A stretch of DNA of 64,000 nucleotides. Origin: a virus. Shown here piece by piece: positions 46,422 through 62,078 of this stretch (position 1 is its first letter; every line of letters begins with the position of its first letter). A program made the translations under genes and the position numbers. The notes under the pieces are model-generated. The model was not told where the DNA came from. It saw only the letters and a list, made by a program, of their open reading frames with translations, and ran no database searches. The stretch spans positions 31,052-95,051 of the IMG/VR virus record IMGVR_UViG_3300025030_000061. The stretch is one strand, 5' to 3'.

Positions 46422-46422
46422 G

Positions 46423-46521
46423 TTATTTACCCTCCTTGGCGGGGCAGTCGTTGCATTCGAGGCCGCAGCCTCCCGAGCACATTCTTCCGTTACCCTTGGG
46501 GCAGATGAAGCAGGTCGCCAT
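46423..46521 (-). CDS. Cysteine-rich miniprotein (32 aa)
   Basis: ATG 46521 follows GAGGAGAAG; TAA at 46423. Cysteines 4, 7, 15, 19, 23 and 26 in 32 residues suggest a tiny zinc-binding protein. It lies between the 80-aa gene and the pyrophosphatase-like gene with 1-5 base spacing. Confidence 0.5.
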   Translation of the reverse strand: MATCFICPKGNGRMCSGGCGLECNDCPAKEGK

Positions 46522-46525
46522 GCTA

Positions 46526-46768
46526 TTACTTCTCCTCCTCGGGTTCTCCCCAAGATTCGCCTGCCTTGTACTCGTCCTCGGTAAAACCGGGGATCCTTTC
46601 TCCGCCGCGCTTGTGGGCCCCGCGCCAGAATCCGGGAGGCGGCAGGTCTCCGTCTGCCAGGTCCCAATCCGTTTCCAGCGTATCCTCGCCCAGCATCCCC
46701 TCTGTGCCGTCTATGACGTCATCCGGGACCGGGTCGCCTTCCTGGTGCTCGAAAAGTGCTTTCGTCAT
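46526..46768 (-). CDS. Acidic hypothetical protein (80 aa)
   Basis: ATG 46768 after AGGAGGACAG. A very acidic protein (EHQEGDPVPDDVIDGTEGML) with a Pro/Gly/Trp middle (GDLPPPGFWRGAHKRGGERI). No domain recognised. It lies directly after the giant protein gene. Confidence 0.55.
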   Translation of the reverse strand: MTKALFEHQEGDPVPDDVIDGTEGMLGEDTLETDWDLADGDLPPPGFWRGAHKRGGERIPGFTEDEYKAGESWGEPEEEK

Positions 46769-46828: not shown

Positions 46829-49800
46829 CTAGTTCACGTAGCGGGCGAAGCGGCGCATAGTGCTGTCGTCGGTAATGTCGAGCGATCCGTACCAGTTGGT
46901 GCCTAGCAGCAGCGCCTTGCCGAGATCGTTGCCGTTGTGCTTCATATCGGCGATCGCCCAGATCGACTCGGGGTTGCTGCTGGTCAGCAGGTCACCGACC
47001 TTGGCAGCCTGGTCCGGTGTGAATTGCCGGAATGTGCTACGGCGGCCTCCGGCTGTCACAGTCTTGTCGCTCGTCTGCATGAAGGAGAGGTTCCGTTGGA
47101 CCTGGTTCTTGATCACCTGCAGGGCGTTGGCGGTCGTCGCCTTGAATCCGAAGCGTGCCCAGGTGTACCCGCCGACATCGATGTTGGCGTGGACGTCGAC
47201 TCGGGTTGCTCCGATCACTTTGTAAACTCCCATCGATGCGCGGAGAAAGGCTTTGCCGCTGTTCCCTCCTGATGTGCCGGCCTGGAAGTAGGAGTGGTCC
47301 ACCACCACCTTTCCGGTGGATTGCTTGGTGAATGTGCGGTCAATCCTGGTCCCGTCGCTGCCTCTCATTTCTACCGCTATCATCCTGTCATCGTAGGACG
47401 ATACGGAGACCCGAAAGCTGGTGGTTCCGCCGTAGTCGGCGAGCATCGTACCGAGCGCGTGCTTCAGCTCGTCTGGGGAGTTGAGCCCCATGACGTTCTG
47501 GGCCTTGGCTCCGATGGCCGGCCAGTCGATGCCCCATCCGCTGATGTTGGCGCCTGGCACGCCGTGTGCCTTGAATCCGCTACGAACGAGCTTGGTCTGT
47601 AGGTTCGTTAGTGCTGCCCGGTTCCTCTCGTTTGCCTCTCTGGCGGCTCTGTCCCTTTCGACCGCTGCCGTGCGTTCTGCTGCCTCGCGCTGGGCTCGGG
47701 CTTCGGGTGTGTCCGGTACCCAGGTCCCGGCCTGGTAGTCCCTGGCGCGGTTCTGCATGGCTGCGTCCTGGGTGATGTACCGGCGTGCCAGGTCCCGCTG
47801 CGCCGTGTCGCGGTAGGGTTGCATGGCTCCGGCTTGCCCGCGGTTGTTCCAGTAGCCATCGGTGCCGGTGTAATAAGTCAGGGGGTAATCCGGCCGTGGC
47901 ACGAATCCGAGCTGGGCTTCGGTCAGGTTGAGCGGGTTCGCGGATCCCGGTACCGGGTTTGTGGGCGGCTGGGCCGCGGCTGGTGCTGAGGGGCGCCGGG
48001 TCCTCGGTGCGGGTGCCGAGCGTGGGGTTGCTGTCTCGCGCTGCACTACTGGGGCCTGCGGCATTGGGGTGCTGTTCGCTTCTCCGCTCTGGCTTGCCGG
48101 CTGCGGTGTGCCGTCGCTGTTGTGGCCGAAGTGGCGCAGCAGCAGGGTGCGGTAGTCGTCGGCCGCTCTGGTGTACCCGTTGCTCCTGGTGGTCTGGATG
48201 GCGAGGATGGCCGCGACCGGGTCCTCCTCCTGGGCGGCTTCGTAAAGGCGATTGATCTTGTTCTGCGCGGAGATCAGCGCCGAGTTCTGCATGTTGCCGG
48301 CGGTGATGGTGGTCGGTGCCGGCGCCGCGGCCAGGGTTTCCTCCGGTGGCGCGATATTCCGTGCTGCGTTGGCTGCGGCCAGCAGCTCCGCCCTGTAATC
48401 ATCGACGGCCGCGTAGTTGGCGCGGGTCCGGCTGGTGCTCAGGTTGGCAATCGCATCGATATTGCCGATGAGGGCGAGTTGGCGGAGGTGGGCGGAGCGC
48501 CTGGCTGTCATTCGGTTGCTCTCGCTGGTGTCGGAGAAGTACGGGACCGCCACCTGGCGCATGGCGTCGATCATTGCCTCCTCGGGGGAGAACGCTCCGG
48601 TTGCAGCGTGCCCGAGCCTGACCGCCTCTGCGGATCCGGCGCGGAACCAGCGGCGGACGGGCTGTCCGTCGGGTCCGGCCGTTGTGCGGAGCACGTATCC
48701 GGGGTGATTGGCAATCGCCGTAGATTTGATCAGCAGGCTCCGGTCGGGGATGGTGCGGATCGACTTAAACATCCGCATCTGGAGCATGCCGGAGCGGTCC
48801 CCTGGCAGGTGTTCAGCCATGGGGGTGGTTTCGCCCTTGGTGCCTTCTTCGCGGCGCTTATGCTGGTCTGCTGCGATATCCTCGGCGTCGAGGACCTTGA
48901 GTCGTGTCGCCTCGTCCAGCTTGCCCCAATGAGGCAGGTGGCCGAATCGCTCCCGCTGGAGGCCGCGGACCTCGTGGCTGTCCTGGGAGAAGGAGAGCTT
49001 CTGGCCGTACTTGCGGACGCGGCTGTCTTCGTGCTCCATGACATGCACCAGGGCGCCGTGGGGCGTTACCCGGTCGTAGGACCGGACGCGGGCCTTGATC
49101 AGTCGGGCATTACCGGCTCTGCTGCCTGCCGTTCCTTCTCGGCCTGCTGCTCCTGCTCCTGGGCGGATGCCTTTTCCTTCAGCTTCTTGGCAGCCTTGGC
49201 CTTCCTGTTCGCTTTTGCGTCCAGCCGGTCGGCTTCCTGCAGCGCCCGCTTGAGCAGGTCCCCTTTCCGCTGGTACAGCTTTTTGTCCTTGTCGTTCTCG
49301 GCCATGCTGACCTCCTTGGTGTTTTAGCAGCAGGTGTGTGAAGGCGCGTGCCTGGAATGATTGCGCCTTGTTGAGATCGGCGCCGCTGTTCGCCTGCTGC
49401 AGGGCCTGCTTAACCACCGTCTCCTTCGATTTGGGCTCTGCCGGTCCCGAGAACATATCGACCTCGGGGTTTTCCCTGCTCGCCACCTCCGTCTTGATGG
49501 CGTGGCTTATCCCCTTAAAGACGTTTTCCAGCCGGCTCCTGGATCCGGTGCGGTCGGCGATTGCCAGGATCATGTCGGTGGCGTAGTCGGTCTTGAAGGT
49601 CGGGGTATCCCCGGTGAAGTTGAGGGAGCCCGCGTTGCGGAGGGTGTGCTCCAGCTCGGCGCGGCTCTGTCCCTGGTGGCTCAACGTGTATTCGATCGCC
49701 TCCATCATGTCGGGGACCACGTCGAGGTCGTCGTGCCCCTTCACCTGGGCGAAGTCTCCGACGCAGGCATTCAGGGCCCGGAGTACATTCCGGATCTTCG

Positions 49801-52800
49801 GCTTCGCGCTCTCGGCTTGCAGCTCGGTCAGTACGCTGCTGCCGTACACCTTGGTGAAGACCGCGTTTTGGATCCGCTCGATCGCCTTCTTGTTCGGATC
49901 GCCGTCGGCGTCCCGGAGGCTGGCCGATTCGTTTTTCCCGAGTTTGTCGAGAAATCCGTTGATAAAGTCCATGTTGTCGTCGCAGTAGATCTCGCCGTCC
50001 TCGTCGGGCTGGAACTTCTTGAGGAGGGTGTCGTCTATCCGCTCGGAGTCGGACCATGCTTGTTCGGCTGGGGAGGAGCCGAGGTTGCTGCTCTGGTTCG
50101 CCTCCCTGGCAAACTCGGCGCGATCGGTGTTTGAATCGTTCTCGTCGCGCAGGCGGACCAGTACCGGCTGCTGCATCCCTTCCACGTCTTCCGGTTTGAG
50201 CCCGAAGTGTTCGGCTTCGCCTTTGAGCCATGTCTTGTACTTGTCGGCCAGGCCGCGCTTATAGGCTTCGGAGAGGGCGATGGTGCGGCCGTTCCCACTC
50301 TCAACCGCGCCATCCTTGCCGACGATCGGGGCGCCGTCTGCGGCATTGGCGGAGTGCCCCAGCTGCTCGGGGCGGATGTCGTTCATGATGTTTGCCATCT
50401 GCATCTGGGACGAGAGGCGTTCGCGCTCCCTGGGCTGGATCTCCTGCGGGTAGGCGCGGTTGATGTGCCCCTGGATGGTGTGGCTTGTGGTCAGGTCGCT
50501 CGCTTCCACCAGGGAGTACTTGCTCTGGACCTTGTTGCCCTTCGCGGTGTAGGCCAGGTTGGCGCGTCCGGTGATGAACTTCGGGTCCTTCTTCCCGGTG
50601 TCGGTTTCCTCGACCTGCCTGCGGCCGGCGATGCTGGTCACCTGCCCCTTCGCTTTATCCGGGTCGACGCCGGCGAAGTGGACCTTGTGCTGGTCCCCTT
50701 CCTTGCCGATCGTCACGGTGTGCCCGTCCTTCTCGAACTTGCTGGCGGTTGCCTCCCGGTCCACCTTGTGCCCGAAGTGGGCCAGCAGCTTCTCGCGCTC
50801 GTCGTCTACCGCTTTGAGGTAGGGGTTCGCCCTCGAGGTGTGGATGGTGGTCAGCGCAGCCACTGGGTCGTCGGAGTTCTTGGCCGCTTCGTGCATCTTG
50901 GTGATGATGCGCTGCGCCGATACCAGAGCGGAGTTCTCCTGGTTGGCTCCCTTGATCTTGCCGGGCTCGGGCATGTCCTCTTTTTTGCCGACCGCTTTCC
51001 TCTCGTCCTTCTTGACCGGGTGCGTCTCCTTCTCCTTCCAGCCGTTCCCGCGCAGGTGCGTCATGAGGTCCTCGCCATGCTTCAGCGTGCTCCCCTGGTG
51101 GACCTGCTCGCCGTGTTTGTTCTCGTGGGCAATCACGTCCTGGTGCTTCCGCACGCGGCGGTCGTTGTGCTCCTGGACGACGGTCCCGTCCTGCCTGGCG
51201 TACTGCTGAATGTGGCTCTTGATAAGGTGGAATCGCTCCATGAGGCCGTCGATTGGGCTGGGCGCGTAGAGGTGGACGCTCTTGTGTAGGCTGTTGACGT
51301 CGACCAGGGCTTTCCCCCAGGAGGTGAAGCGCACGGCGCGGTCGTCGAGGTAGATGTCGGCAATCGGCTTGCCGGGGTTGGCTCCCTCGGGCTGCTCGCT
51401 GTTCGTGTTGATCTCGTCGAACGGGATCCCGTTGTCGGCAAGGTATGCCCGCAGGACAGGGGTGTCGGGGCGGGTGGTGTGGATGATCAGCTTCCAGCCG
51501 GCATCCTTGAGCTCGTGCATCCCCTCCGCGGCGCCGTCCACCGGGGGGCCGAATTTGTCAACGCCGAGGAATCCCTGGGAGTAGTCCGCGAGCGGGCCGT
51601 CGAAGTCTATGCATGCGGTCCGCTGGTGCTCGGCTACGGCTTTACGGAGGTCGCCAAGCTCCTGCATGCTTTTTAGGAGTCCGCGCAGGTCCTGCATGCC
51701 GCGAGTCCTGGCGAGGTTCGCCAGCGCCGAGGTCATCCTGACCTTCACCTGGTCGGCGTCCCATCGCTCCCCCTCGGGCGCCGGCATGTTGGCTCGGTTC
51801 AGCGCCGCGGCGATGTCCTGGTCCTTGTAGGCGTGGTCGAATCGGTCCAGGCCGAACTTCATCTTGATGATGGCTGCCGCGATCGGGTCGTCGAGGGATT
51901 CAAGGTGCGTGACGATCCCCTGCATGAGCTGGGCCTTCTTGGCTGCGTCCGATTCGTGCTCGGGCACGGTGGCGGCCTGGGCTGCGATCCCTCGCATGCC
52001 GCTCTCCTGGTCGTCCTCCATCCCGCCGTCGTAGGAGGTGTGTTCCTGCAGGTGCCTCTGGTGGGCGATGATATGGCGCAGCGCGGCGGTCTTCCCGGCG
52101 CGGGTCATAGACATAAGTATGCGGCTATCGCTTCCCTCTCCGGCCAGCGTGTCGCGCAGGTCGTCCAGGTCCTTCTCCGGGGCTCTGCTCGTCTCGGTGC
52201 GGTACGAGTTCATGGCTGCCGCGATGTACTCGCTGTATAGCTCGTTGGCGTCGTTGTCGTCGTTATGAAGGGCTCCCCCCAGGTCGATGTAGTGGGGGTT
52301 GAATCCGTTGCTGGTCGCCAGGTGGGCGAGGGTGCTTTTCATACGGCTGACGAATACCGGGTGGGTCAGGACCTTCCCTTCGTCGAGCTGTGCCCGCTGC
52401 TGGCCAACCTCGGCGCGGCGCCGGCTCTCCTCGGTGGAGATGGTGCTTCCCCCCCTGGAGGTCGTCTCCCTGGTACCGGTGCGGGCAGTTTCAGCCTTGT
52501 GCTCCTCGTCGGTCCAGACGTTGTCCCGGTCGGTGGTGATCTGCGCCGGGCGGAACGTGTAACCATCCCTTACAGGTTGGATGGTGTAGCCTTCCTCGTG
52601 GCTCCCCGCGACGATCGTGCCCTTTTTCTTCCTGGGCTGGCCGGGTACCTTGTAGTAGACCTTGTGGCCGTGCTGCAGGCGGTCGCCTTCCTTCCCTCTG
52701 ACGGTCACCTTCGCCATGGTCGCGGCCACCTGCACGGTCCCACCGTTGGCGGTATGCCTGGTGGTGCCTTCACGGTGGTGGACCTCCTCGTGGGCAGGGG

Positions 52801-52867
52801 CTCGGTAATCGAATAGGTTGAGCTGCGACTTTAAGAGATGAACGACGTGTTTGATGCCATTTAACAT
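46829..52867 (-). CDS. Giant multi-domain virion-cargo-like protein (2012 aa)
   Basis: Start at ATG 52867 (GGAGGG upstream). In order: module B (HLLKSQLNLFDY, about residues 10-49); a sigma-70-like helical region (175-400, with MKFGLDRFDHAYKDQDIAAAL); a HAD-phosphatase-like domain (410-525: ACIDFDGPLADY, IHTTRPD, DIYLDDRAVRF); module A (545-575); module C (640-700); a DdrB/ParB-like domain (770-950, VESGNGRTIAL); a Gly/Ala/Gln stretch that is the other-frame reading of the gene nested at 49099; module A again; degenerate and clear C modules (near 1470 and 1550); a Pro/Ala linker; and an acetyltransferase-like end (GGYTWARFGFKA). It probably enters the host with DNA. Confidence 0.7.
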   Translation of the reverse strand: MLNGIKHVVHLLKSQLNLFDYRAPAHEEVHHREGTTRHTANGGTVQVAATMAKVTVRGKEGDRLQHGHKVYYKVPGQPRKKKGTIVAGSHEEGYTIQPVRDGYTFRPAQITTDRDNVWTDEEHKAETARTGTRETTSRGGSTISTEESRRRAEVGQQRAQLDEGKVLTHPVFVSRMKSTLAHLATSNGFNPHYIDLGGALHNDDNDANELYSEYIAAAMNSYRTETSRAPEKDLDDLRDTLAGEGSDSRILMSMTRAGKTAALRHIIAHQRHLQEHTSYDGGMEDDQESGMRGIAAQAATVPEHESDAAKKAQLMQGIVTHLESLDDPIAAAIIKMKFGLDRFDHAYKDQDIAAALNRANMPAPEGERWDADQVKVRMTSALANLARTRGMQDLRGLLKSMQELGDLRKAVAEHQRTACIDFDGPLADYSQGFLGVDKFGPPVDGAAEGMHELKDAGWKLIIHTTRPDTPVLRAYLADNGIPFDEINTNSEQPEGANPGKPIADIYLDDRAVRFTSWGKALVDVNSLHKSVHLYAPSPIDGLMERFHLIKSHIQQYARQDGTVVQEHNDRRVRKHQDVIAHENKHGEQVHQGSTLKHGEDLMTHLRGNGWKEKETHPVKKDERKAVGKKEDMPEPGKIKGANQENSALVSAQRIITKMHEAAKNSDDPVAALTTIHTSRANPYLKAVDDEREKLLAHFGHKVDREATASKFEKDGHTVTIGKEGDQHKVHFAGVDPDKAKGQVTSIAGRRQVEETDTGKKDPKFITGRANLAYTAKGNKVQSKYSLVEASDLTTSHTIQGHINRAYPQEIQPRERERLSSQMQMANIMNDIRPEQLGHSANAADGAPIVGKDGAVESGNGRTIALSEAYKRGLADKYKTWLKGEAEHFGLKPEDVEGMQQPVLVRLRDENDSNTDRAEFAREANQSSNLGSSPAEQAWSDSERIDDTLLKKFQPDEDGEIYCDDNMDFINGFLDKLGKNESASLRDADGDPNKKAIERIQNAVFTKVYGSSVLTELQAESAKPKIRNVLRALNACVGDFAQVKGHDDLDVVPDMMEAIEYTLSHQGQSRAELEHTLRNAGSLNFTGDTPTFKTDYATDMILAIADRTGSRSRLENVFKGISHAIKTEVASRENPEVDMFSGPAEPKSKETVVKQALQQANSGADLNKAQSFQARAFTHLLLKHQGGQHGRERQGQKAVPAERGPAQAGAAGSRPAGRKSEQEGQGCQEAEGKGIRPGAGAAGREGTAGSRAGNARLIKARVRSYDRVTPHGALVHVMEHEDSRVRKYGQKLSFSQDSHEVRGLQRERFGHLPHWGKLDEATRLKVLDAEDIAADQHKRREEGTKGETTPMAEHLPGDRSGMLQMRMFKSIRTIPDRSLLIKSTAIANHPGYVLRTTAGPDGQPVRRWFRAGSAEAVRLGHAATGAFSPEEAMIDAMRQVAVPYFSDTSESNRMTARRSAHLRQLALIGNIDAIANLSTSRTRANYAAVDDYRAELLAAANAARNIAPPEETLAAAPAPTTITAGNMQNSALISAQNKINRLYEAAQEEDPVAAILAIQTTRSNGYTRAADDYRTLLLRHFGHNSDGTPQPASQSGEANSTPMPQAPVVQRETATPRSAPAPRTRRPSAPAAAQPPTNPVPGSANPLNLTEAQLGFVPRPDYPLTYYTGTDGYWNNRGQAGAMQPYRDTAQRDLARRYITQDAAMQNRARDYQAGTWVPDTPEARAQREAAERTAAVERDRAAREANERNRAALTNLQTKLVRSGFKAHGVPGANISGWGIDWPAIGAKAQNVMGLNSPDELKHALGTMLADYGGTTSFRVSVSSYDDRMIAVEMRGSDGTRIDRTFTKQSTGKVVVDHSYFQAGTSGGNSGKAFLRASMGVYKVIGATRVDVHANIDVGGYTWARFGFKATTANALQVIKNQVQRNLSFMQTSDKTVTAGGRRSTFRQFTPDQAAKVGDLLTSSNPESIWAIADMKHNGNDLGKALLLGTNWYGSLDITDDSTMRRFARYVN
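49099..49305 (-). CDS. Nested lysine-rich coiled-coil protein in another frame (68 aa)
   Basis: ATG 49305 follows CAAGGAGGTCAGC, a strong ribosome site. The product is a charged coiled coil (LLKRALQEADRLDAKANRKA, KEKASAQEQEQQAEKERQAA) with GC-rich third codon positions, the normal pattern for a real gene here. It lies wholly inside the giant ORF, one base out of frame. The giant ORF through this stretch reads Gly/Ala/Gln/Arg, the typical shadow of this frame. Confidence 0.65.
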   Translation of the reverse strand: MAENDKDKKLYQRKGDLLKRALQEADRLDAKANRKAKAAKKLKEKASAQEQEQQAEKERQAAEPVMPD

Positions 52868-52912
52868 GCTTCCCTCCGGCGGGTGCTTTGTGCCTGTCAT
52901 CCTAAGTCATCA

Positions 52913-52938
52913 CGTAGCGCATATCAAACATTTTGCCC
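52913..52938 (-). promoter_or_regulatory. 26-bp late box, copy 3 (before giant gene)
   Basis: On the minus strand GGGCAAAATG, TTTGATATGCGCTACG, 46 bases before ATG 52867. It abuts leader element copy 5 on the plus strand, so the gap holds two divergent signals. Confidence 0.75.
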
Positions 52939-52944
52939 ATTCAT

Positions 52945-52980
52945 ATCATTCTGTATCTGCGTCTTTACTCCTCCAAGCGG
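52945..52980 (+). promoter_or_regulatory. Shared plus-strand leader element, copy 5 (variant)
   Basis: ATCATTCTG and GTCTTTACTC are kept; the GGTGTAGG end is replaced by AAGCGGTACATC. It precedes the small gene at 53008. Confidence 0.45.
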
Positions 52981-53007
52981 TACATCTTCTCCCTTGGAGG
53001 CTCCACC

Positions 53008-53349
53008 ATGAAAAAATCGGCTCTGGTTCCCGTCAAATCTCTTTTCTTGGACATCGCTGCTGGCAGCCAGTCGGTCAACTTCGTGGAGCTGCTCTCCGGC
53101 TGGGGGCAGCGCCTGCGGATCTCCATCAAGTCTGATTCCTATCTCGTCCAGTCCTATGCTCGCATTGAGGTCTGGTCCGCGGCGGAGCTGAAATGGAACC
53201 TGGTGGCCTACGTGCAGCACGGCAGCATGCTGACGCCGGCCGGGCTGATCTACAATCCGAATCGCTCGGGCTTCCAGGCCTCCCACTTCCAGGCCGATCG
53301 CACCGAGCTGATCCGTCTTGCCGGTCTTGTGCTGGGTCCGGTCGCCTAA
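53008..53349 (+). CDS. Hypothetical protein (113 aa), plus-strand island
   Basis: Start at ATG 53008 after TTGGAGG. A soluble strand-rich protein (LFLDIAAGSQSVNFVELLSG, RISIKSDSYLVQSYARIEVW, LAGLVLGPVA). The plus-strand island interrupts the minus-strand late region and shares the leader elements of the left-hand genes, which suggests early expression. No family recognised. Confidence 0.6.
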   Translation: MKKSALVPVKSLFLDIAAGSQSVNFVELLSGWGQRLRISIKSDSYLVQSYARIEVWSAAELKWNLVAYVQHGSMLTPAGLIYNPNRSGFQASHFQADRTELIRLAGLVLGPVA

Positions 53350-53353
53350 CCGT

Positions 53354-53390
53354 ATCATTCCATACAACGGTCTTTCTCTACCCATAGCGG
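53354..53390 (+). promoter_or_regulatory. Shared plus-strand leader element, copy 6 (variant)
   Basis: ATCATTCCA and GGTCTTTCTC are kept; the end reads CCATAGCGGCATACAA, which contains part of the TGTAGCG-type word. Confidence 0.4.
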
Positions 53391-53419
53391 CATACAAAAA
53401 ATTTCTCTGGAGGCTTACC

Positions 53420-53872
53420 ATGCTGATCACCGAAACCCATAAAAACTTCCCCTGCGGTTCCAAAGGTCGTCTCACCGTCAAGTCCGATGCCGGCGAAGTC
53501 CTGGCCGTGATCATGACGCCGGTCCAGAAGGCTCGGAAATACTGCGAGGCCAATCCCGAGACGCCGCAGGGTGTCGAATTCGCCAGGGTAATGGTCGTTG
53601 GACAACACTCGGAACTGCAGGATGCCGTGGACGCTCTGGTTCCGGTCCCCGCTCCTCCGGTCCTGGCCGGCGCCAATCCGGAAAACACGGCGCTCGTCTC
53701 CGCGCAGCGCAAACTGGTGAAGCTTCACGAGGCGGCGCAGGGCGACGATCCGGTCCTGGCGCTTGCGGCGATCAAGACCTCCCGCGGCAATAAATACCTC
53801 AATACCTGCGACGACTACCGCGTCGCGCTCCTGGCTCACTTTGCCCAGGCCGGCATCGACGCAGCGGGGTAG
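53420..53872 (+). CDS. Protein containing a stand-alone module C (150 aa)
   Basis: Start at ATG 53420 after TGGAGG. The first 80 residues are a small domain of unknown kind (GRLTVKSDAGEVLAVIMTPV). Residues 84-142 are a clear copy of module C: ANPENTALVSAQRKLVKLHE then AAQGDDPVLALAAIKTSRGN and CDDYRVALLAHF. The same helical unit occurs in the giant protein at 50771-50953 and 48122-48298. Expressed from the opposite strand, it may bind the same partner as the giant protein. Confidence 0.7.
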   Translation: MLITETHKNFPCGSKGRLTVKSDAGEVLAVIMTPVQKARKYCEANPETPQGVEFARVMVVGQHSELQDAVDALVPVPAPPVLAGANPENTALVSAQRKLVKLHEAAQGDDPVLALAAIKTSRGNKYLNTCDDYRVALLAHFAQAGIDAAG

Positions 53873-53876
53873 GGTC

Positions 53877-54089
53877 ATGTTCGTCCGATATTCTGGCCGC
53901 TCCTGGCGCTCGTCTGGTTCTCACGACGCACAGGGGCGGCTTCTTCTTTCTCCGCTGATCGGTCCCGGTCCTGGGATCGCTGCCGATCCTGACGAGGTTG
54001 AGCTCTGCTCCCCGCGGGAGGTGGCTGCAGCGCGCCGTCTCCTGGCCAAGCGCATATCATTCTGCGGGCCGGGCTTAGGTCTGGTGTAG
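53877..54089 (+). CDS. Small hypothetical protein (70 aa)
   Basis: ATG 53877 lies 4 bases after the module C gene stop, with GGGGTAGGG before it. It reads FVRYSGRSWRSSGSHDAQGR and ends in a Leu/Arg/Gly tail translated through leader element copy 7 (RISFCGPGLGLV). The overlap makes the exact end functionally uncertain. No family recognised. Confidence 0.45.
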   Translation: MFVRYSGRSWRSSGSHDAQGRLLLSPLIGPGPGIAADPDEVELCSPREVAAARRLLAKRISFCGPGLGLV

Positions 54090-54090
54090 G
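54056..54090 (+). promoter_or_regulatory. Shared plus-strand leader element, copy 7
   Basis: ATCATTCTGCGGGCCGGG, CTTAGGTCTGGTGTAGG, preceded by AGCGCATAT, so it also carries part of the TGTAGCG word as in copy 2. It is 24 bases before the ATG at 54114. Confidence 0.5.
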
Positions 54091-54113
54091 TCATTACGGT
54101 TCTGGAGGATGTC

Positions 54114-54518
54114 ATGAGAAAACAGTTCAAGTTTGAGGGCCGGGTCGGTTGCATCGATGATTCTGGTTTCATCGCCTGGGGCGGCATTGGGTGCTCCATC
54201 GGTTCCGCTGGTCCCGATCTGCGTGACGCGATTCTCCAGCAGACCAAAACCTCCGCCCTTTTGCTCGAGGACGTCATGCCTCTCTCCCGCGAAGATTCGG
54301 TTTACCTTCGCTCCATCTCGGAACTCGTTTCCCGGCATTGGACCGAATCGCTTGACGCATTCTTCGCCAGGCTGCAGGGCATCCTCCCGCTCCCGGAAGG
54401 TTTCAAGATCGGTAAGGGGGGGCATCACATCTGGATCGCCAAGTCGGTACCTAAAACCGAGGCAGATACCTCTGGCTGGCATCGGCTCTGCTGCATCACT
54501 GAGCGGGGTGCCAAATGA
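54114..54518 (+). CDS. Hypothetical protein (134 aa)
   Basis: ATG 54114 after TGGAGG. A soluble alpha/beta protein (FEGRVGCIDDSGFIAWGGIG, EDSVYLRSISELVSRHW, GKGGHHIWIAKSVPKTEADT). Not recognised. Its stop overlaps the next start (ATGA). Confidence 0.55.
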   Translation: MRKQFKFEGRVGCIDDSGFIAWGGIGCSIGSAGPDLRDAILQQTKTSALLLEDVMPLSREDSVYLRSISELVSRHWTESLDAFFARLQGILPLPEGFKIGKGGHHIWIAKSVPKTEADTSGWHRLCCITERGAK

Positions 54519-54757
54519 TAGATTACAGCAACGTGGTAGAGCCGATGCGGTGTGAGGCTCGGGGCGGTCGTCGCCTTGGGCGCTTCCTCCTGGCGCTGGT
54601 GGTCCTGGGGTCGTCCTTGTGCTGGTGCATCGCCGGGGGGACCGACCGCCGGCCGGTCGAGGTCAAGAAGCCGGCGCCGGTCGAGTTCTCGGCCGCGCAG
54701 ATCAATACGATGCGGGCGAATGGTCGCCTGCTCAGTCAGAGGGGGTTGCTGCCTTAA
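54515..54757 (+). CDS. Small single-pass membrane protein (80 aa)
   Basis: ATG 54515 overlaps the previous stop. One membrane segment (FLLALVVLGSSLCWCIAGG) after a basic N-terminus, then a cytoplasmic or periplasmic polar tail with a helix (SAAQINTMRANGRLL). Possible superinfection or signalling role; not recognised. Confidence 0.5.
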   Translation: MIDYSNVVEPMRCEARGGRRLGRFLLALVVLGSSLCWCIAGGTDRRPVEVKKPAPVEFSAAQINTMRANGRLLSQRGLLP

Positions 54758-54830
54758 GGATTCATTTGCGGGGAGGGTAGACAGGATTACAAATTACTGA
54801 TATTGTTGCGGCATATTCCCTGGAGGGTCT

Positions 54831-55214
54831 ATGCCGCTTTTTTGTGCCCACTGTTCGACTCCTGCTGACGACGATGCTCCCTGGTGCGAGTGCTGCGGAA
54901 GTGACCTAGTGCCCGCTACCCTGGGTGTGGTCGCTGCCCTGGCTCCGATCCGCCGGCATGACGTAGTCGTCGATCGTCTCCGGGTGAACTGCGTGGCCTA
55001 CGGCGAGCGCCTCCGTCACGATCCCCTCACCGAGACGATGTCCTCGGTCTTCTCCTGCGGTCGCAATCCGGAGAGGATCGATTGCGTCGGTTGTCGGGTC
55101 TGCACCACCTGCGGAGACCTGCGCTGTACCTGCGGGCTTCTCTCCATCTCGATCGGGGTAAAAACAAAGGGCACCGTCATTGATACGGTGCCCCTACGTC
55201 CTCGCCTGGTCTAA
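54831..55214 (+). CDS. Zinc-ribbon protein (127 aa)
   Basis: ATG 54831 after CTGGAGGG. Ten or more cysteines, starting FCAHCSTPADDDAPWCECCG (double zinc ribbon) and continuing CVGCRVCTTCGDLRCTCG. The last codons run through the terminator hairpin at 55165. It closes the plus-strand island. No function is known. Confidence 0.55.
   Translation: MPLFCAHCSTPADDDAPWCECCGSDLVPATLGVVAALAPIRRHDVVVDRLRVNCVAYGERLRHDPLTETMSSVFSCGRNPERIDCVGCRVCTTCGDLRCTCGLLSISIGVKTKGTVIDTVPLRPRLV
55154..55193 (-). terminator. Minus-strand terminator after the MuF-like gene
   Basis: GGGCACCGT and ACGGTGCCC form a 9-bp stem with a 7-base loop; on the minus strand it is followed by TTTGTTTTT. It ends the portal-to-MuF operon, and the plus-strand zinc-ribbon gene reads through the same DNA. 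Confidence 0.8.
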
Positions 55215-55227
55215 TCATTCCTTCGCT

Positions 55228-56454
55228 TTAACTCTTTTTCTTCGCCCAGGGCTCGTGCCCGGTGTATGGGTATGGTCCCAGACAAGCGCACCAGGGGTGC
55301 ATGAGCCCGGCGACCGCCTTCATGGTGGATGCTCCGTCGTCTCTCCCTCCCAGAGCCACCTTGCCGCCTCGGATCGGGTGCGGCTTCCTGCCGATGTTCG
55401 TTGCGTTTCGGATCAGCGTAGAGAGCTTGAAGACCCTGGGGGTCTTGCCGTCGGGCAGGAGGTATGCGTACTTGCATTGGGCGCAGGCGGTCCCCAGGGG
55501 CATCTTGTAGACCGGCTTATCCACGTCTCCGTCGGCCATGAGGGCGTGCGCCATTCCCTGCTTCTGGGCGTCGGTGATCTCGTAGTATGCGACTCGGTCC
55601 CAATCCCTGGCCTTATCTTCCATGGTGCGGTGCAGCTCGCTGGCGAACTGCTGCCACGTCTCCACAGGCCGGGCCGGCGTGGGGATCCCCAGCGCTGCCT
55701 TGCGCTCCTGGTCGAGCACCGTCCTGGTGAGCGTCCTGGCGTGGAAGTCGATCGCCATCTCCCGGACCGTCTCGGCCTGCTGCTTCGCCCAGGCTTCCCC
55801 CACTCGGGTGGCGAGGTCAGCGGCGTTATTCGTGATGTAGTTGGCGGTCTGCTGCTCCGCGATGGCGATTGCGTGCAGGTCCGGCGCCAGGATGTGAGCG
55901 TACCGGGCCATATCCATGACATCGGCGAAGCTCTTGCCGCTCTCCACGACCTGGATCATCTTGCCCATGAGGAAGGCGCTGCGGATGAAGTGCAGGTCTG
56001 CCGGCACGCCAAGGGCGAACGTCTCGGGGGTTATGTCCTGGGAGACGAGGCCCAGGCGCTTCCAGCGCTCCAGCAGGTCCTCGGGGGGCTGGTACCCTTC
56101 GGATTGGAGCTGGGCCGCAATGAATCCGTAGCGGTCGTTAATGGCGAGCTGCAGGCGCCGCAGTTGCTCGGTGGTCAGCGGTTCCCTGGCGGCGCTGGCC
56201 TTGGCGATCGCGCTGGTGGCGATCTCCTGGTGGTAACGCTCTATGTCCGTCTGGGCTGCCTGGAACTCGGCCAACATCCGGTGGTAGAGTTCCTTTGTGG
56301 CGCGGGTGCGGGGGACCTTCGGACGGTTGTCGCATCCTACCGCCTTCTGCAGTTCCTCGATCACGTCGTCCTGGATCCCGCTCGCCGCAGCCATCCCGGT
56401 GATGGCCTTGCAGAGTTCTTCCCCGGTGAGGTTATGCTCGACCTTGAGCTCCAT
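55228..56454 (-). CDS. Head morphogenesis protein, MuF/gp7-like
   Basis: 408 residues. The first half is helical; residues 290-400 hold the MuF-like block: DWDRVAYYEITDAQKQGMAH, TACAQCKYAYLLPDGKTPRV (zinc pair), and HPWCACLGPYPY at the end. It follows the portal in the gene order as MuF proteins do, and is a minor head protein that may be carried in the virion. Start overlaps the upstream stop (TAATG). Confidence 0.75.
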   Translation of the reverse strand: MELKVEHNLTGEELCKAITGMAAASGIQDDVIEELQKAVGCDNRPKVPRTRATKELYHRMLAEFQAAQTDIERYHQEIATSAIAKASAAREPLTTEQLRRLQLAINDRYGFIAAQLQSEGYQPPEDLLERWKRLGLVSQDITPETFALGVPADLHFIRSAFLMGKMIQVVESGKSFADVMDMARYAHILAPDLHAIAIAEQQTANYITNNAADLATRVGEAWAKQQAETVREMAIDFHARTLTRTVLDQERKAALGIPTPARPVETWQQFASELHRTMEDKARDWDRVAYYEITDAQKQGMAHALMADGDVDKPVYKMPLGTACAQCKYAYLLPDGKTPRVFKLSTLIRNATNIGRKPHPIRGGKVALGGRDDGASTMKAVAGLMHPWCACLGPYPYTGHEPWAKKKS

Positions 56455-58010
56455 TATTTCAGCAGCTCGTCAGCCGCGGTCTGTACTTCGGAGACCGCCT
56501 TCTTCAGATCGTCCTTGTCGCCGCCAGGCTCCTCTCCGCCGGGTTTGTGCTCGGCAGCCTCCTGCTGGGCGGTTTCGCCGGCTTCGTGCGCAGCATCCTC
56601 GTGTTTTTTCCCCTCAAGGAGATGCGTGTGGAGGGCTCCGAAGTGCTTAGCATTGCCGTCCTCCCCTTTATGGCTGTTCCATGCTGCCTGGTGGGCTTCT
56701 GCTGCCTTTTTGTGGGCGGATGCGGCCGTCTGGTGGTCTTCGGCCGTGCCCGTCTTCCTGGCGGTCCTGCTGGCCTTGTTTGCTTCTTTGGTGAGCGCGT
56801 GGGCCTGCCGGCTATCCTCGTGCTCCTTGACGGCCGTGCCATCCTGCTTCGTGTAGCCGGTGACGTGGCTTTTCAGCAGTTCGGCTGCCATGGCGCCGAG
56901 TGCGACCGCTTTACTGAGGTCTTTGTGCATGGTGGGGCTCCCTTGATCAAGGTATCTGGAATAAACTTCTGAAAGATCTAGTTCCTGCTTCAGCACGGTG
57001 GCGACCTTCTCGTGCCTGTTGTTGCCGGCGACGTCATGGCCGTAGAGCTTCGAGCGCAGGATGTTACCGTCTGCTGATATGTCTGGGATGTGGCCGGAGG
57101 CATTGACCGCCTCGATCCTGGGCGCCAGGGTGACCTCCGCGACCGCTCCCAGGAAGTGTACTCGCGGTGGTTTGATCTCCCGGAGAAACTCTATCAATTC
57201 CTGGTTCGAGACGGCCTCCTCCTGGGATGGGATACCTACCACGAAGCGGTCGACGCCGATAATGCCGACTATCTCCCGGTAAGCGTCTGCCAGCGTCTTT
57301 GCTCCTACCTGCAGGGGCACGATGCAATTCGGGTTGAACTGGATCTGGCCGCTGATCCAGTCCCGGTGTTTCCGGTAAAGGTCCGCAGTCCCCTCCTGGT
57401 CCCCGATGATGTCCGGCATGACGAAGTACGGCGGGGTGATGGGCTCCTCGGCAGGGTTCGCTTCCTCGATGGCGTCCATCACGGCGTCGTATTTAGCCAG
57501 GACCTTCTCGAAGTCCATGGTCTTCCACTCTGGCGCCTCGTTGGCTCCCATGAGGGATAGCTGCTGTGCGGTCTGGTGGCTCTTGAGGTTCTTTCTGAAC
57601 AGCGAGAAGGCGCCGGAGTCGATGAAGACCCTAGCTCGGTGGTTCACGATTCCATTTGCTAATGCCTTCATCGCGGGCGCGGTCAGGAGGCCTATGTCGA
57701 TGCCTAATCCCACCTTACCGCTGTCTGCCAGGACGCTGGTCCCCGCCTTCAGTTCGGTGATGCTGGTCATCCCCGATGAAAACCTGGTGATTGATGCGAG
57801 GTTCACCTTCGGTGCGGTCACCTGCTGGGCCGACCGTACAATGTGAGTGCCTCTCGCCTGGATGTGGCTCACCGTCCCCGCGGCGTTACGACGTTCGTAT
57901 GCGGTGTGGTGAGGGTCATGGCTCGCCGAAAAGTCGAAGCCCTGTTGGCTTTTACGGAGGCTGCTGCTTGCGGTCGTGCAGTCTGTTATGGCGTTGGCGA
58001 GTTCGTTCAT
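56454..58010 (-). CDS. Protein with TGT/DpdA-like domain between cargo modules (518 aa)
   Basis: Module B opens the protein (SLRKSQQGFDFSAS, residues 17-54). Residues about 100-330 look like a tRNA-guanine-transglycosylase-type barrel of the DpdA kind: VFIDSGAFSLFRKN (131-140), PPYFVMPDIIGDQEGT (193-208), VPLQVGAKTLADAY, DRFVVGIPSQEEAV and a conserved PRVHFLGAV. Module A (LLKSHVTGYTKQDGTAVKEH) follows at 378-401, then an Ala/His/Lys/Glu-rich helical tail. If active, it may exchange guanine for a 7-deazaguanine in DNA or tRNA; no zinc Cys cluster is evident. Stop and start codons overlap neighbours. Confidence 0.6.
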   Translation of the reverse strand: MNELANAITDCTTASSSLRKSQQGFDFSASHDPHHTAYERRNAAGTVSHIQARGTHIVRSAQQVTAPKVNLASITRFSSGMTSITELKAGTSVLADSGKVGLGIDIGLLTAPAMKALANGIVNHRARVFIDSGAFSLFRKNLKSHQTAQQLSLMGANEAPEWKTMDFEKVLAKYDAVMDAIEEANPAEEPITPPYFVMPDIIGDQEGTADLYRKHRDWISGQIQFNPNCIVPLQVGAKTLADAYREIVGIIGVDRFVVGIPSQEEAVSNQELIEFLREIKPPRVHFLGAVAEVTLAPRIEAVNASGHIPDISADGNILRSKLYGHDVAGNNRHEKVATVLKQELDLSEVYSRYLDQGSPTMHKDLSKAVALGAMAAELLKSHVTGYTKQDGTAVKEHEDSRQAHALTKEANKASRTARKTGTAEDHQTAASAHKKAAEAHQAAWNSHKGEDGNAKHFGALHTHLLEGKKHEDAAHEAGETAQQEAAEHKPGGEEPGGDKDDLKKAVSEVQTAADELLK

Positions 58011-59242
58011 TTTGTCTCTGAGACATCCTCGCCCATGTCCTTTAGCCGCTCGACGATCGCTTTGGCGTGCCCTGCGCTGGGGTATTGGTGCAGTTCGTGG
58101 ATCATCTGTTCCACCTCGGCACGGTGCTGCTGCATCTGCGGGTGAGCGAGGAGCCCGGTGGCTGCCGCGTCGACCTGGGTGATGAGGTGCGCGATCTCGG
58201 GGGCTACCGAAACTACAGCGCCTTGGTGTTTGGGGTACGGGTTGTCTATTGGGCTGCCATCAGATTTCGTGTCTCCACTCCAACCATGGTGCCATGCCAT
58301 GTTCTCGAATGTTTCATCCGTGTATGGGTTAGCTCTCTCTGACTTACCTGCCGATTTGGCGGCTTTACCTTCTTCATATTTTTGATGCCTTGTATCGGGC
58401 CTACCGTGGAGCAGCGGTGCCGCATCTTCGCCCTGGATGGTGATCTCCTGTTTTTTGCCGCTGCTCCAGACCAGTTCGGTCTTGTCGCCGGCCTTGAGGT
58501 CGCCGAGGAAGTCTTCGGTGTAGGCCTCCCGCGACTCGATGATCTTCTTGATGTCGGCGGTGGTCATGCTGTTCGGCGCGGGGTAGGTGGGGCGCTGCGG
58601 GATCCTGTACCCGGCGTCCACTTTTGCCTCCTGGACGGCAACCGGCTGTTCATCCTCGGCTGCTGCTTTCCTTCGGGCGATCTCGTTGCCGACCTGGGCA
58701 AGCATAGCGTTGTCCCCGCTGTTAGCGAGTCCAGTCACCAGTTGGTGCAGTCCTTCGTCGGGGACCAGGTGGAGGTTGGCAATCGGGCCTCCCGCTGGCG
58801 CCGTGCCGCTTCCTTCTAGCTCGCTGATGTGCCGGTTCAGCATCCCTCCGACCTCGTCCGCTCCCCGCTTTCCGAGGCGCTCGTGGCCCTGGTACTTGAG
58901 GATGTTCTTCGCCGTCTGCAGGTACTTCTCCGGGGTGCTGTAGTCGGGATGGTCGGTGCTGATGCCGAGCCCTCCGCGGCCTCGCTTGTCGTGCTTCTCG
59001 AAGGCGTCGTGCAGTTCCTTCACCATTGCATGGTGGTCCTGGGGTTGGGTCGGGGCTCCCTTCGCCTGGATCTGGCTAGTGGTGCCTCTCGCATTGGTAC
59101 GGGTGTACGCTGCGTGATGCGGGTTCGAAGTCGCGGTTGCCGGGGCTGCGAAGTCAAAGCCCATCTGCGACTTTCTGAGGAGGTCCGGTCCCGTCTGTGC
59201 CGCGTCCTCGATGGCCTTCAAGAGTTCTTCTATCTTGTTCAT
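58007..59242 (-). CDS. Cargo protein with module B and RMF-like motif (from internal start, 411 aa)
   Basis: ATG 59242 follows AGGAGG with good spacing, and the start MNKIEELLKAIEDAAQ then LLRKSQMGFDFAAP parallels the start of the gene at 58010. Module B spans residues 21-62. Further on comes an RMF/CrpP-like motif (YEEGKAAKSAGKSERANPY ... AWHHGWSGD, near 58275-58385), the pattern known from ribosome modulation factor. The C-terminus is helical (VAPEIAHLITQVDAAATGLL). Confidence 0.7.
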   Translation of the reverse strand: MNKIEELLKAIEDAAQTGPDLLRKSQMGFDFAAPATATSNPHHAAYTRTNARGTTSQIQAKGAPTQPQDHHAMVKELHDAFEKHDKRGRGGLGISTDHPDYSTPEKYLQTAKNILKYQGHERLGKRGADEVGGMLNRHISELEGSGTAPAGGPIANLHLVPDEGLHQLVTGLANSGDNAMLAQVGNEIARRKAAAEDEQPVAVQEAKVDAGYRIPQRPTYPAPNSMTTADIKKIIESREAYTEDFLGDLKAGDKTELVWSSGKKQEITIQGEDAAPLLHGRPDTRHQKYEEGKAAKSAGKSERANPYTDETFENMAWHHGWSGDTKSDGSPIDNPYPKHQGAVVSVAPEIAHLITQVDAAATGLLAHPQMQQHRAEVEQMIHELHQYPSAGHAKAIVERLKDMGEDVSETK

Positions 59243-60343
59243 GGTGATGTCCTCCTGTCGACTATAAGGCGACGGCGCAGAATGATAGATCGCTTTTTTA
59301 AACTTGCCGGGTCTATAGCTTGGGTTCTTCCCAGCCTCTTTGTCTCTGTGATATCGTTTTAGTGCAAGTTCATTTTCTCTTTGGCGTCGGTCCTCGCTTT
59401 TATACTTTTGAAGCCCGCTATACTTAAAGTTTTTTACCGCACTGCTGCCACCTACATCTTCTTCTGAAACTATTTTAAATGTCCATCCTCTTGCATGGCA
59501 GTACTCCGTTGCTGCTTGCCATTTTGTTTGGTTTATTGCGTAGTCGTGTTCGCATTTCCATTTAACTTCTTCGATTTCTTTACGTCCATCGTTGTATTCC
59601 ACTAAAAAGTCGGGAAGGTATCTGCGGTCCCCATATTTTATTATGGGCACATTTTTGGTCCAGGTCTTGACTGTACCGTCCGCGTCCAGCTGCTGCATGC
59701 GGAGAATTTCTGTTATTGATCCTGCATGTTCCCACAGGCCTGTTTTGGTTGATTGCCACCAGCCTTTAATGCCGCGTGGGGTATAGTTCTTTTTTGCCTT
59801 GATCGCAGACGCTTCGCTCTGTGTTCTGAGCGCGCCTGCCTTTTTTACCTGGCCAGCCACCGAACCTGTACTGGTATTCAAACGCTTACCGATCTCGGTT
59901 GGAGACATTTGATCTTCTGTATAAAGCCTCACCATTTCATTCTGCAAATCTAGTGGGATCTTCATGGAACGTATGAGTCCTTCATTCCGCATCCATCGAA
60001 TTACCGTGGTCTGCGGAATGCCCATTTCATCCGCTATTTGCTTTGTAGATTTTCCCTCTTTGTAGCGCTGTGCAACTTCTTCTTTATCGCCTCGTTCTCT
60101 TAAAGGGACATTGTATCTTGTCAGGATGCTTCTTACTCCATTTGCGGAGCAGGAATGTTTCTCCGCTATTTGTGGTAATGTCAATTTGCTGTTTTTATAC
60201 TGTTGGATAATCGAGTTGGTAGTTTCTTCGCTCAGATAGTGTTTATTTGCAGGGTTCTCCCTTCCGCGTGAGTCTTCGTGTGCGGTTACTATATTCCCGT
60301 TCTTTTTTGTGTATGCCTTGATATGGCTCTTGAGCAAATGCAC
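58007..60343 (-). CDS. Fused ORF: module A + homing endonuclease-like insertion + cargo protein
   Basis: GTG 60343 follows GGGGAG at the portal stop. After module A (60266-60337), an AT-rich part encodes three HTH units (LPQIAEKHSCSANGVRSIL, TKQIADEMGIPQTTVIRW, SPTEIGKRLNTSTGSVAG) and a VSR/TnsA-like PD-(D/E)XK domain (DRRYLPDFLVEY, then IEEVKW with the Lys). No stop separates it from the downstream protein, which has its own start at 59242. Probably a homing-type nuclease gene inserted next to, or inside, a cargo gene. Confidence 0.65.
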   Translation of the reverse strand: MHLLKSHIKAYTKKNGNIVTAHEDSRGRENPANKHYLSEETTNSIIQQYKNSKLTLPQIAEKHSCSANGVRSILTRYNVPLRERGDKEEVAQRYKEGKSTKQIADEMGIPQTTVIRWMRNEGLIRSMKIPLDLQNEMVRLYTEDQMSPTEIGKRLNTSTGSVAGQVKKAGALRTQSEASAIKAKKNYTPRGIKGWWQSTKTGLWEHAGSITEILRMQQLDADGTVKTWTKNVPIIKYGDRRYLPDFLVEYNDGRKEIEEVKWKCEHDYAINQTKWQAATEYCHARGWTFKIVSEEDVGGSSAVKNFKYSGLQKYKSEDRRQRENELALKRYHRDKEAGKNPSYRPGKFKKAIYHSAPSPYSRQEDITMNKIEELLKAIEDAAQTGPDLLRKSQMGFDFAAPATATSNPHHAAYTRTNARGTTSQIQAKGAPTQPQDHHAMVKELHDAFEKHDKRGRGGLGISTDHPDYSTPEKYLQTAKNILKYQGHERLGKRGADEVGGMLNRHISELEGSGTAPAGGPIANLHLVPDEGLHQLVTGLANSGDNAMLAQVGNEIARRKAAAEDEQPVAVQEAKVDAGYRIPQRPTYPAPNSMTTADIKKIIESREAYTEDFLGDLKAGDKTELVWSSGKKQEITIQGEDAAPLLHGRPDTRHQKYEEGKAAKSAGKSERANPYTDETFENMAWHHGWSGDTKSDGSPIDNPYPKHQGAVVSVAPEIAHLITQVDAAATGLLAHPQMQQHRAEVEQMIHELHQYPSAGHAKAIVERLKDMGEDVSETK

Positions 60344-60347
60344 CAGA

Positions 60348-62033
60348 TTACTCCCCAATGGTTATGTGGAGATATTTTTTTTCTCTCTGATTTTGCTTGG
60401 GCTGCTGTGACTTTTGCATTGAGTCATCTTCTTCTTGATCCTGCTGGTCCTGCTGGTCCTGCTGTTCCATCATGTTAAAAGTATTTATATAATTTGGGAT
60501 CGCGACATCTGCCGGAAAATTCCAGGGGTTAGTATCTGCTCCTTCTTCTTTTTTAACTGGTCCAATAGGGTCAAGCCCTTCTTCCATCCTAGCCTCATTT
60601 CTAGTCATCCATTTAGAGACTCGTGAGGTTCTGACGGCTACTGTTTCTTGTTCGTCATCGGGGTTGAGTCCTACAAGTATCAGTTTCAGATCGTCGTATC
60701 TGGGTTTGATTATGCAATACGTTAGCCACTCACAGAGGTCTGTTAGCGATGGGATGAGGCCGCGTTCCTTGCTGAATTCTATCTCGTCCGACGGGTTGTG
60801 CCCGCCGAGCCCGCTCTGGCCGCTGGTGCCGGCGTAGGTGGAGAGGTTGAGTGTGCTGGGGTGGGCGCCGTAGGCCGCTGCCTTCAGGTTAATCGCCAGC
60901 TCTATCATCTGGTCGAATAGCATGTCCTTCGGGCTTTCGCGCAGTTTGACGCTCTTGACCTCGAAGCCTTCCTTGTCGCCGGAGGGGATTACAGGGAGGC
61001 GCCAGTTGCTGCCAATCCCGCCGGCTTCGGCTAGTATCTGCTGCTTGAATGCGGCGAGGCCTTCCTTATCGTAGTCCCCGGAAACGGTCAGGATTTGCTC
61101 CGGGTAGTTCGTGCGGAACATCTCCCGGTTGTACGTCCATGCCATAAGGAGGGTGGTGGTGATGTCGAGGGAAAGTTCCAGGCGACTCTCGCCGTACCCG
61201 AAGCGGTTGAGCTGGTCGCTCGGGTTGCTGATGTGGACGCTGATCTCGTCAGGGAGGAATGCCGCGGTGATCTGGCCGTCGATCAGCTGAACGTGGGAGC
61301 ACCTGGCGAGGTCGAATCCGGAGGCCTGGGATGCTCGCTCCATTCTGAATCCGTCGTCCTTCCGGTTCTTCTCGTTTTTCTGGGCCCAGGCGCGGATCGC
61401 CTCGTCGACGTTTTTGACGCTCTCCCCGGGGAGCCAGTGGAAGGCAGAGTATCCCTGTCCGTCGCGCCGCTTGTACCGGAGGAGAACCTTTCGGTCTATG
61501 ATCAGCTCGGCGCGGGTGAGGATGCCGACCAGGTCCTTCAGTCCGGTGTGCGGTCGGACCTTCTGAGGGTAGATGTCGAGGTACGGTTCCGGCGTCGGGT
61601 CGGAGAGCAGTTCCTCCATCTCGCGGCAGCGCTCGTCGTCTCCCTTGGTCACCTTATAGTTCTTGTCATCGTGGCGCTTGTGGACGACGCGAAAGCCGAC
61701 CTCTTTGCTTTTCCCCTCGTTGGCCTGCTGCCAGATGCGCTTCTGCTGGTCGATCCTGGCGCGGATCAGAATGGAATCGACGAAGGATTGCCGAGCGGCT
61801 TCATACAATATACTGAATTGTGGGGTACCTTGAGGTTTCTCTCGTGCTCCGTATGCCACCATATTCTGCGCCAGGGCGTAGGTGGAGAAGAAGGAGGCCT
61901 TGTTGTCTTCCTTCTGCATCTTCTTCGCTTCGGACTTGACGAGGTGCTCGATGGATCGGGCCGGCACGATTAGGCCGGCCGGTGTCTCTATCGGGTCGTT
62001 GAGGAAGTCTGAGGTTTTGGGGAGGTGAATCAT
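60348..62033 (-). CDS. Portal protein
   Basis: 561 residues from ATG 62033 (GGAGGG upstream, within a hairpin). A long mixed protein with the portal features of this myophage group: LKDLVGILTRAELIIDRKVL, GQGYSAFHWLPGESVKNVDE, DEISVHISNPSDQLNRFGYG and ELAINLKAAAYGAHPSTLNL. It ends with Gln/Asp repeats (EQQDQQDQQDQEED). The portal forms the ring through which DNA enters and leaves. Confidence 0.8.
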   Translation of the reverse strand: MIHLPKTSDFLNDPIETPAGLIVPARSIEHLVKSEAKKMQKEDNKASFFSTYALAQNMVAYGAREKPQGTPQFSILYEAARQSFVDSILIRARIDQQKRIWQQANEGKSKEVGFRVVHKRHDDKNYKVTKGDDERCREMEELLSDPTPEPYLDIYPQKVRPHTGLKDLVGILTRAELIIDRKVLLRYKRRDGQGYSAFHWLPGESVKNVDEAIRAWAQKNEKNRKDDGFRMERASQASGFDLARCSHVQLIDGQITAAFLPDEISVHISNPSDQLNRFGYGESRLELSLDITTTLLMAWTYNREMFRTNYPEQILTVSGDYDKEGLAAFKQQILAEAGGIGSNWRLPVIPSGDKEGFEVKSVKLRESPKDMLFDQMIELAINLKAAAYGAHPSTLNLSTYAGTSGQSGLGGHNPSDEIEFSKERGLIPSLTDLCEWLTYCIIKPRYDDLKLILVGLNPDDEQETVAVRTSRVSKWMTRNEARMEEGLDPIGPVKKEEGADTNPWNFPADVAIPNYINTFNMMEQQDQQDQQDQEEDDSMQKSQQPKQNQREKKYLHITIGE

Positions 62034-62040
62034 TATTGGT

Positions 62041-62064: not shown

Positions 62065-62078
62065 AGTATGAACGATTG

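Follow-up and report, generated by a model that had tools for sequence, protein, structure and literature searches.

A recurring tag in multi-domain proteins of a phage head operon: a likely head cargo signal with a predicted prohead protease site

The 64,000-nucleotide window analysed here spans bases 31,052-95,051 of the 95,051-base record IMGVR_UViG_3300025030_000061 of an uncultured virus, and carries a minus-strand head operon in which several large multi-domain proteins share a short recurring sequence element. We propose that this element is a head cargo tag that is cut by the prohead protease at LxK^[SA] (the caret marks the predicted cut), and we consider this interpretation likely. 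The initial annotation of this DNA had described three recurring modules, A, B and C, as possible head-packaging or delivery tags. This suggestion fits A and B, which merge into one kind of tag: the tagged genes have portal, minor-head, InPase or scaffold/capsid genes as neighbours, and the tag opens with the motif that is abundant in the scaffold and is found at the likely capsid maturation site. Its signal is likely a prohead protease site plus a loading leader. The notion of three equal tag types was rejected, as the A and B profiles cross-match and module C lacks LxK[SA]. This motif, which had not been singled out before, is the core common to the tags, the scaffold, the protease, the capsid, the portal and protein P400.

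The members of the head operon, as identified by Pfam and PHROGs, are the following.

60348..62093, minus strand: portal protein (phrog_12), with LVK53^S and MQK561^S near its two ends.
58007-60358, minus strand: P783, with HTH and TnsA-like domains.
56454-58010, minus strand: P518, a tagged, putative cargo protein.
55228..56454, minus strand: P408, a candidate minor head protein; sites in its N-terminal part, at residues 16, 37 and 85, are conserved among relatives.
46829-52900, minus strand: P2023, with HAD and ddrB-ParB domains.
45465..46667, minus strand: P400, with Pfam domains InPase and DUF5661.
43852..44835, minus strand: prohead (head maturation) protease (phrog_1028), homologous to SPO1 gp3.2.
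43119..43826, minus strand: scaffold-like protein, rich in strict LxK[SA] sites.
41622..43064, minus strand: major capsid protein (PF17236/phrog_752), with MLK12^A and LRK29^A near its N-terminus.

The putative cargo genes thus sit between the portal gene and those of protease, scaffold and capsid, i.e. they adjoin virion genes. Relatives were found via the capsid protein as 15 contigs (50-74% identical), of which the upstream stretches were retrieved. At the DNA level, positions 40000-64000 of the window had no match among 50,697 phage records. The protease and capsid alignments likewise had no match in 84,980 bacterial/archaeal genomes, and hence no host can be named.

All previously described copies of modules A and B were recovered on the minus strand, at or within a few codons of their earlier coordinates, and the repeats are genuine: profile scores are 41-52 bits for module A and 58-76 bits for module B, while the best scores in 600 shuffled proteins were 4.8 (A), 7.7 (B) and 3.4 (C). 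The A and B profiles match each other's members, and A and B are therefore variants of one element. Its consensus is L-x-K-[SA]-[HQ], followed by Y-x-R-x(4)-G-x(4)-V-x-x-H with a spacing that varies by a few residues. The copies are listed below with their profile independent E-values (i-E).

60266..60337, minus strand: N-terminal tag A of P783, LLK^SHIKAYTKKNGNIVTAHEDSR, with the site at residue 10 (i-E 2e-11).
59057..59224, minus strand: leader (LLKAIEDAAQTGPDLLRK^) and tag B inside P783, with two LxK[SA] sites (i-E 6e-20).
57849..58010, minus strand: N-terminal leader and tag B of P518, LRK^SQQGFDF...HHTAYERRNAAGT (i-E 8e-17).
56808..56879, minus strand: tag A inside P518, LLK^SHVTGYTKQDGTAVKEHEDSR (i-E 9e-13).
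52721..52837, minus strand: B-like tag at the N-terminus of P2023, LLK^SQLNLFDY (i-E 3e-22).
51146..51226, minus strand: tag A inside P2023, LIK^SHIQQYARQDGTVVQEHNDRR (i-E 4e-13).
49013..49102, minus strand: variant of tag A in P2023, LIK^ARVRSYDRVTPHGALVHVMEHEDSR (i-E 6e-15).

Together, the window and its relatives yielded 63 distinct tag sites. Position P1 is Lys in 63/63, which is partly by construction since the seeds contained LxK; P1' is Ser in 54 and Ala in 9. The P3 residue is always hydrophobic (Leu in 52, otherwise Ile, Phe, Val or Met), P2 is free, and P2' is mostly His or Gln. Nearly half of the sites (29/63) fall within the first 40 residues, and 27/63 have a second site upstream, often in the arrangement LxKAI..A......LLxK^SH. 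A search with the tag against isolated phages gave no matches.

The motif is strongly enriched in the head operon. Tallied over the open reading frames (ORFs) of the window, not of the whole 95 kb, L.K[SA] occurs 39 times in the 5,755 amino acids of the nine head-operon proteins, versus 4 times in the 13,867 amino acids of the other ORFs (Fisher p=5e-17). Leaving out the scaffold, there are still 28 occurrences in 5,520 amino acids (p=5e-12), and among all patterns of the form X.YZ in these remaining head proteins L.KS and L.KA rank first and second. The head proteins show no enrichment of L.R[SA] or L.K[TG]. The window scaffold has 11 strict sites in 235 residues, and the scaffolds of 12 relatives each contain 8-12 [LIVM]xK[SA] sites, with a usual spacing of about 8-25 residues; in aligned sites Leu and Lys are kept and the following residue alternates between Ser and Ala. 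Strict sites in the relatives number 111 in 21,806 residues of head-side ORFs versus 18 in 26,118 residues of tail-side ORFs (p=1e-21).

The same motif recurs in the protease and its presumed substrates. By sequence, the protease belongs to the HK97/T4-type prohead proteases (phrog_1028, E 1.7e-41); in an alignment of 12 members, His69 and Ser155 are invariant, as are K24-S25 and K194-S195. In the N-terminal part of the capsid proteins there is a site near residue 12 and another about 17 residues further on, near residue 29; the second is present in 15/15. Portal sites are found near both ends in 12/12 relatives. Capsid and protease show distant homology to proteins of SPO1 (gp6.1 and gp3.2, respectively) and Twort (Herelleviridae). 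The SPO1 scaffold is studded with LxKS and that of Twort with VxKS or IxKS. Besides a homologous protease and capsid, these phages thus have an abundance of [LVI]xKS in the scaffold in common with the phage described here; neither the tag nor polyvalent cargo was seen in the stretches of SPO1 and Twort that were read. In PDB entry 9row, a capsid chain of a Twort-like Staphylococcus phage, the deposited sequence, rather than the accompanying paper, gives a start at Ser25, right after Val-Val-Lys24 (the full product has 463 residues; 5lii), and this start aligns with the second site of the window capsid, LRK29^A30. The mature HK97 chain (1ohg) starts at Ser104, after FNK103. In view of the SPO1/Twort homology and the K^S starts of the deposited 9row and HK97 chains, LxK^[SA] is very probably the site of the maturation protease, as judged by sequence comparison. 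An explicit herellevirus cleavage motif was not found in the open literature. The record comprises 95 kb, against about 130 kb or more for Herelleviridae, and its protein homology to them is only distant, which makes the phage a relative rather than a member of this family on sequence grounds.

The protease also contains a copy of the capsid N-terminal arm, at about residues 225-258 and usually with a site (near residue 227 in the window protein; blastp 4e-8 to 1e-6). The proteases of L005, L011, L012, SPO1 and Twort carry this copy as well, and it perhaps docks the protease like a capsid subunit.

Several points weigh against a cut at every such site. Apart from the seeding of the tag set and the reliance on a deposited chain start, at least three hairpins without LxK were set aside from the 63 sites. 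Motif-like sites also occur within the folded core of the protease, as LQK[SA] close to the catalytic Ser, and near the capsid C-terminus, as VxKA, so that LxK[SA] alone is no proof of a cut. Sites are fewer within Pfam domains (5/1,961 residues, versus 38/8,260), but only as a trend, and site depletion inside domains was dropped as a test of cutting, as it is not significant (p=0.25).

The tags could also be docking signals that remain uncut and bind scaffold, portal or capsid, with the protease cutting only scaffold and capsid. Such a role would suit the conservation of the segment following K^S, the part that would remain attached to the cargo, as well as the internal position of some tags. 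We regard it as unlikely, since P3, P1 and P1' agree exactly with the sites of scaffold, capsid and protease, the Ser/Ala exchange included, and since InPase, DUF5661 and HAD units have a site without the hairpin.

The enzyme-like domains that had been reported between the modules fared unevenly. HAD (phrog_1238, 1e-22) and ParB, here as ddrB-ParB (PF18763, 2e-36), were supported, the sigma-like region was borne out as HTH/sigma70-r4-like, and a TnsA-like nuclease (PF08722, 1.7e-14) and an InPase pyrophosphatase (PF18823, 2.8e-27) could be added. The RMF-like match lies below the family cut-off, and the acetyltransferase-like domain found no support in Pfam, PHROGs or NCBIfam. For the TGT-like assignment in P518 nothing was found in Pfam, PHROGs, NCBIfam or PDB sequence searches; a single-sequence fold model of P518 was unusable (predicted local distance difference test, pLDDT, 42.6), and P518 as a probe in viral contigs retrieved no relatives. 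Three chains combine several unrelated domains, as polyvalent proteins do: HAD and ddrB-ParB in P2023, HTH and TnsA-like in P783, and InPase and DUF5661 in P400. Further LxK[SA] sites of P2023 and P400 are listed below, some of them at domain borders.

51638..51679, minus strand: LLK^SM and LRK^AV, a pair of sites immediately ahead of the P2023 HAD; the HAD in L008 and L021 is preceded by the same pair.
51278..51289, minus strand: site LHK^SV just after the HAD of P2023.
49364..49375, minus strand: site LNK^AQ in P2023, after the ParB region; VKK^S and LIK^S are found in the aligned region of L008.
48722..48733, minus strand: site LIK^ST in P2023, matched by LRK^ST in L011.
46404-46415, minus strand: site LLK^SH of P400.
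46287-46298, minus strand: site LMK^AR of P400 directly before InPase, with the same junction in relatives.
45711-45722, minus strand: site LRK^SG of P400 directly before DUF5661, with the same junction in relatives.

HAD is thus flanked by sites on both sides, and InPase and DUF5661 start right after a site, whether they are free-standing or fused in longer chains. Tagged proteins probably enter the prohead during its assembly and are cleaved within it, in many cases at points that separate enzyme domains. With sites between enzyme domains, the long chains would be polyproteins. Whether they are true effector polyproteins, with several host-takeover enzymes per chain, each behind a portable load-and-cut cassette and released separately tagged in each head, we put forward tentatively, as a possibility of somewhat less than even standing. 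If this holds, new effectors would join by landing beside the cassette, which would account for the shuffling, fusion and splitting of units among relatives. L020 has its LxK[SA]-bounded units in a different order, the unit that follows module B in P783 is located at the end of the P2023 homologue in L007 and L008, and P408 runs on into a tag and a PBECR3 RNase domain in L029, with the same P408-tag fusion in L030. Further tagged proteins in relatives include SNF2 helicases and LPD1.

Such rearrangements would also be expected if the proteins were simply mosaics through which recombination has spread a short mobile domain that has no packaging role. This explanation appears quite improbable, given that the tag loci recovered in the collection scan have head, InPase or polyvalent genes around them, and that the motif is common to the non-homologous scaffold, portal and capsid proteins.

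Separate products might, alternatively, result from internal translation starts instead of proteolysis, the tags being former gene starts. P783 contains an in-frame ATG at 59240-59242 (minus strand), preceded at 8 nucleotides by a perfect Shine-Dalgarno sequence, AGGAGG, at 59251-59256, and its two halves are separate genes in relatives; P783 would seem to be two ancestral genes fused, with the second start kept. Because of this internal ATG with its good ribosome-binding site, separate products at the P783 junction may also arise by translation, which counts against a purely proteolytic origin there. As a general explanation we consider internal starts the least probable of all: a candidate internal start, at 59242, is seen at one junction only, and the sites after that ATG and those in P2023, P400 and the scaffold are left unexplained. 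At P783, internal initiation and proteolysis may both hold.

A mechanism can be outlined for a tag that is cut by the prohead protease. The tag would begin with a short leader, helical or hydrophobic, that ends in L-x-K; the cut would fall between this Lys and the following Ser/Ala, and the conserved Y-x-R...G...V...H segment behind it would become the new N-terminus of the released protein. As the head assembles, the scaffold would come together in the prohead with the leader sequences of the cargo, the portal, the capsid and the minor head protein. Next, the protease, whose catalytic region is flanked by sites and which carries the capsid arm copy, would be activated; it would shred the scaffold, trim the capsid N-terminus and cut the cargo at its tags. 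The scaffold peptides would then leave, with the cargo ready for ejection with the DNA. Since some sites in P2023, P783 and P400 lie between enzyme domains, one polyvalent precursor could give several injected enzymes.

Comparable systems are known in other phages. The prohead protease of T4 cuts after Glu. The T4 system has another motif than the one described here, a single leader per protein and no conserved segment after the cut, while the architecture of leader plus site is present here as in T4-like capsid targeting. In T4 the leader loads internal proteins into the scaffold core and is removed by the prohead protease gp21, which also shreds the scaffold (PMC9958956). In phage P1, the first 30 residues of DarB target the capsid and the DarA leader is cut by the prohead protease, and no common sequence is reported among the Dar N-termini (PMC9024508, PMC12810830). 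The P1 Dar system (DarA, DarB, DdrB) resembles ours in its DdrB-type ParB homology (36%), but here one tag recurs in many proteins, also between domains. In SPN3US, gp245 cuts many head proteins at one motif, A-x-E, with Ser preferred at P1', and a C-terminal propeptide is present on the protease (PMC10052503). The phage described here likewise has many head proteins with one motif, a preference for Ser at the predicted P1' and a putative C-terminal propeptide on the protease, but SPN3US differs by the cut after A-x-E instead of L-x-K and by propeptides that are taken off single proteins, rather than tags within multi-enzyme chains. T4, SPN3US and P1 are tested precedents for leader loading and prohead protease cutting, and support the proposed mechanism. 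For polyvalent proteins, processing by an internal metallopeptidase domain has been proposed (Iyer et al. 2017, PMC5512222). Our proteins share with them a large multi-domain organization, a position beside head genes, and the domains DdrB-ParB, InPase, ART-PolyVal, PBECR3, LPD1 and SNF2; unlike in that proposal, it is the prohead protease that the LxK^[SA] tag common to our proteins suggests. By analogy, the system would work like the loading and cutting of T4, P1 and SPN3US, and the shared tag on many polyvalent effectors would be new.

If correct, tag and cut would explain how large multi-enzyme cargo enters the head and becomes working pieces. The checkable rule of LxK^[SA] plus tag ties polyvalent proteins to the head protease, predicts exact new N-termini for dozens of proteins across this phage group, and offers a way to spot injected effectors among uncharacterised genes. 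The K^S part of the rule seems to extend to SPO1- and Twort-like phages, and the tag may provide a portable signal by which proteins could be directed into phage heads.

Some additional arrangements were encountered in the other loci. In L037 (6350-7696 and 7684-9243) and L040 (6498-7379 and 7646-8779) the first ~80 residues of P408 are joined to a different ORF, that of a putative cargo protein, and the P408 core, encoded separately, lacks the N-terminal sites; in L037 tag B stands behind the detached P408 N-terminus. An ADP-ribosyltransferase domain (ART-PolyVal) flanked by two tags follows an SNF2 helicase in L016 (3-3440). A tagged protein of L031 (11259-13922) has DUF5661 and an S-adenosylmethionine lyase (38.6 bits, cut-off 28) between two tags, and is a candidate for an injected anti-restriction enzyme. 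In Lactobacillus phage LJ (L035, 4995-5951) a HAD-like domain related to that of P2023 is fused ahead of an HK97-type head protease; as it lacks the LxK[SA] tag, it was rejected as a related case.

Module C is a helical repeat of about 58 residues, with copies in P2023 at 50771-50953 and 48122-48298 (minus strand) and a further copy in a plus-strand gene; homologues of P2023 contain it too.

53669..53848, plus strand: module C copy in the gene at 53318-53872 (i-E 3e-34), outside the tag system.

The two full copies and the plus-strand copy are genuine (i-E 3e-34 to 6e-33), while the copy earlier described as degenerate is present at residues 1482-1508 but weak (i-E 0.003). Searches with module C gave no match in isolated phages or families. 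It has no link to LxK[SA] and was therefore kept out of the tag system; without the motif, and with a copy in a plus-strand gene, it is probably a mere repeated helical domain. The plus-strand gene lies between P2023 and P408, within the head operon, and in L024 module C is found at 14275-14754 (minus strand), there again on the opposite strand.

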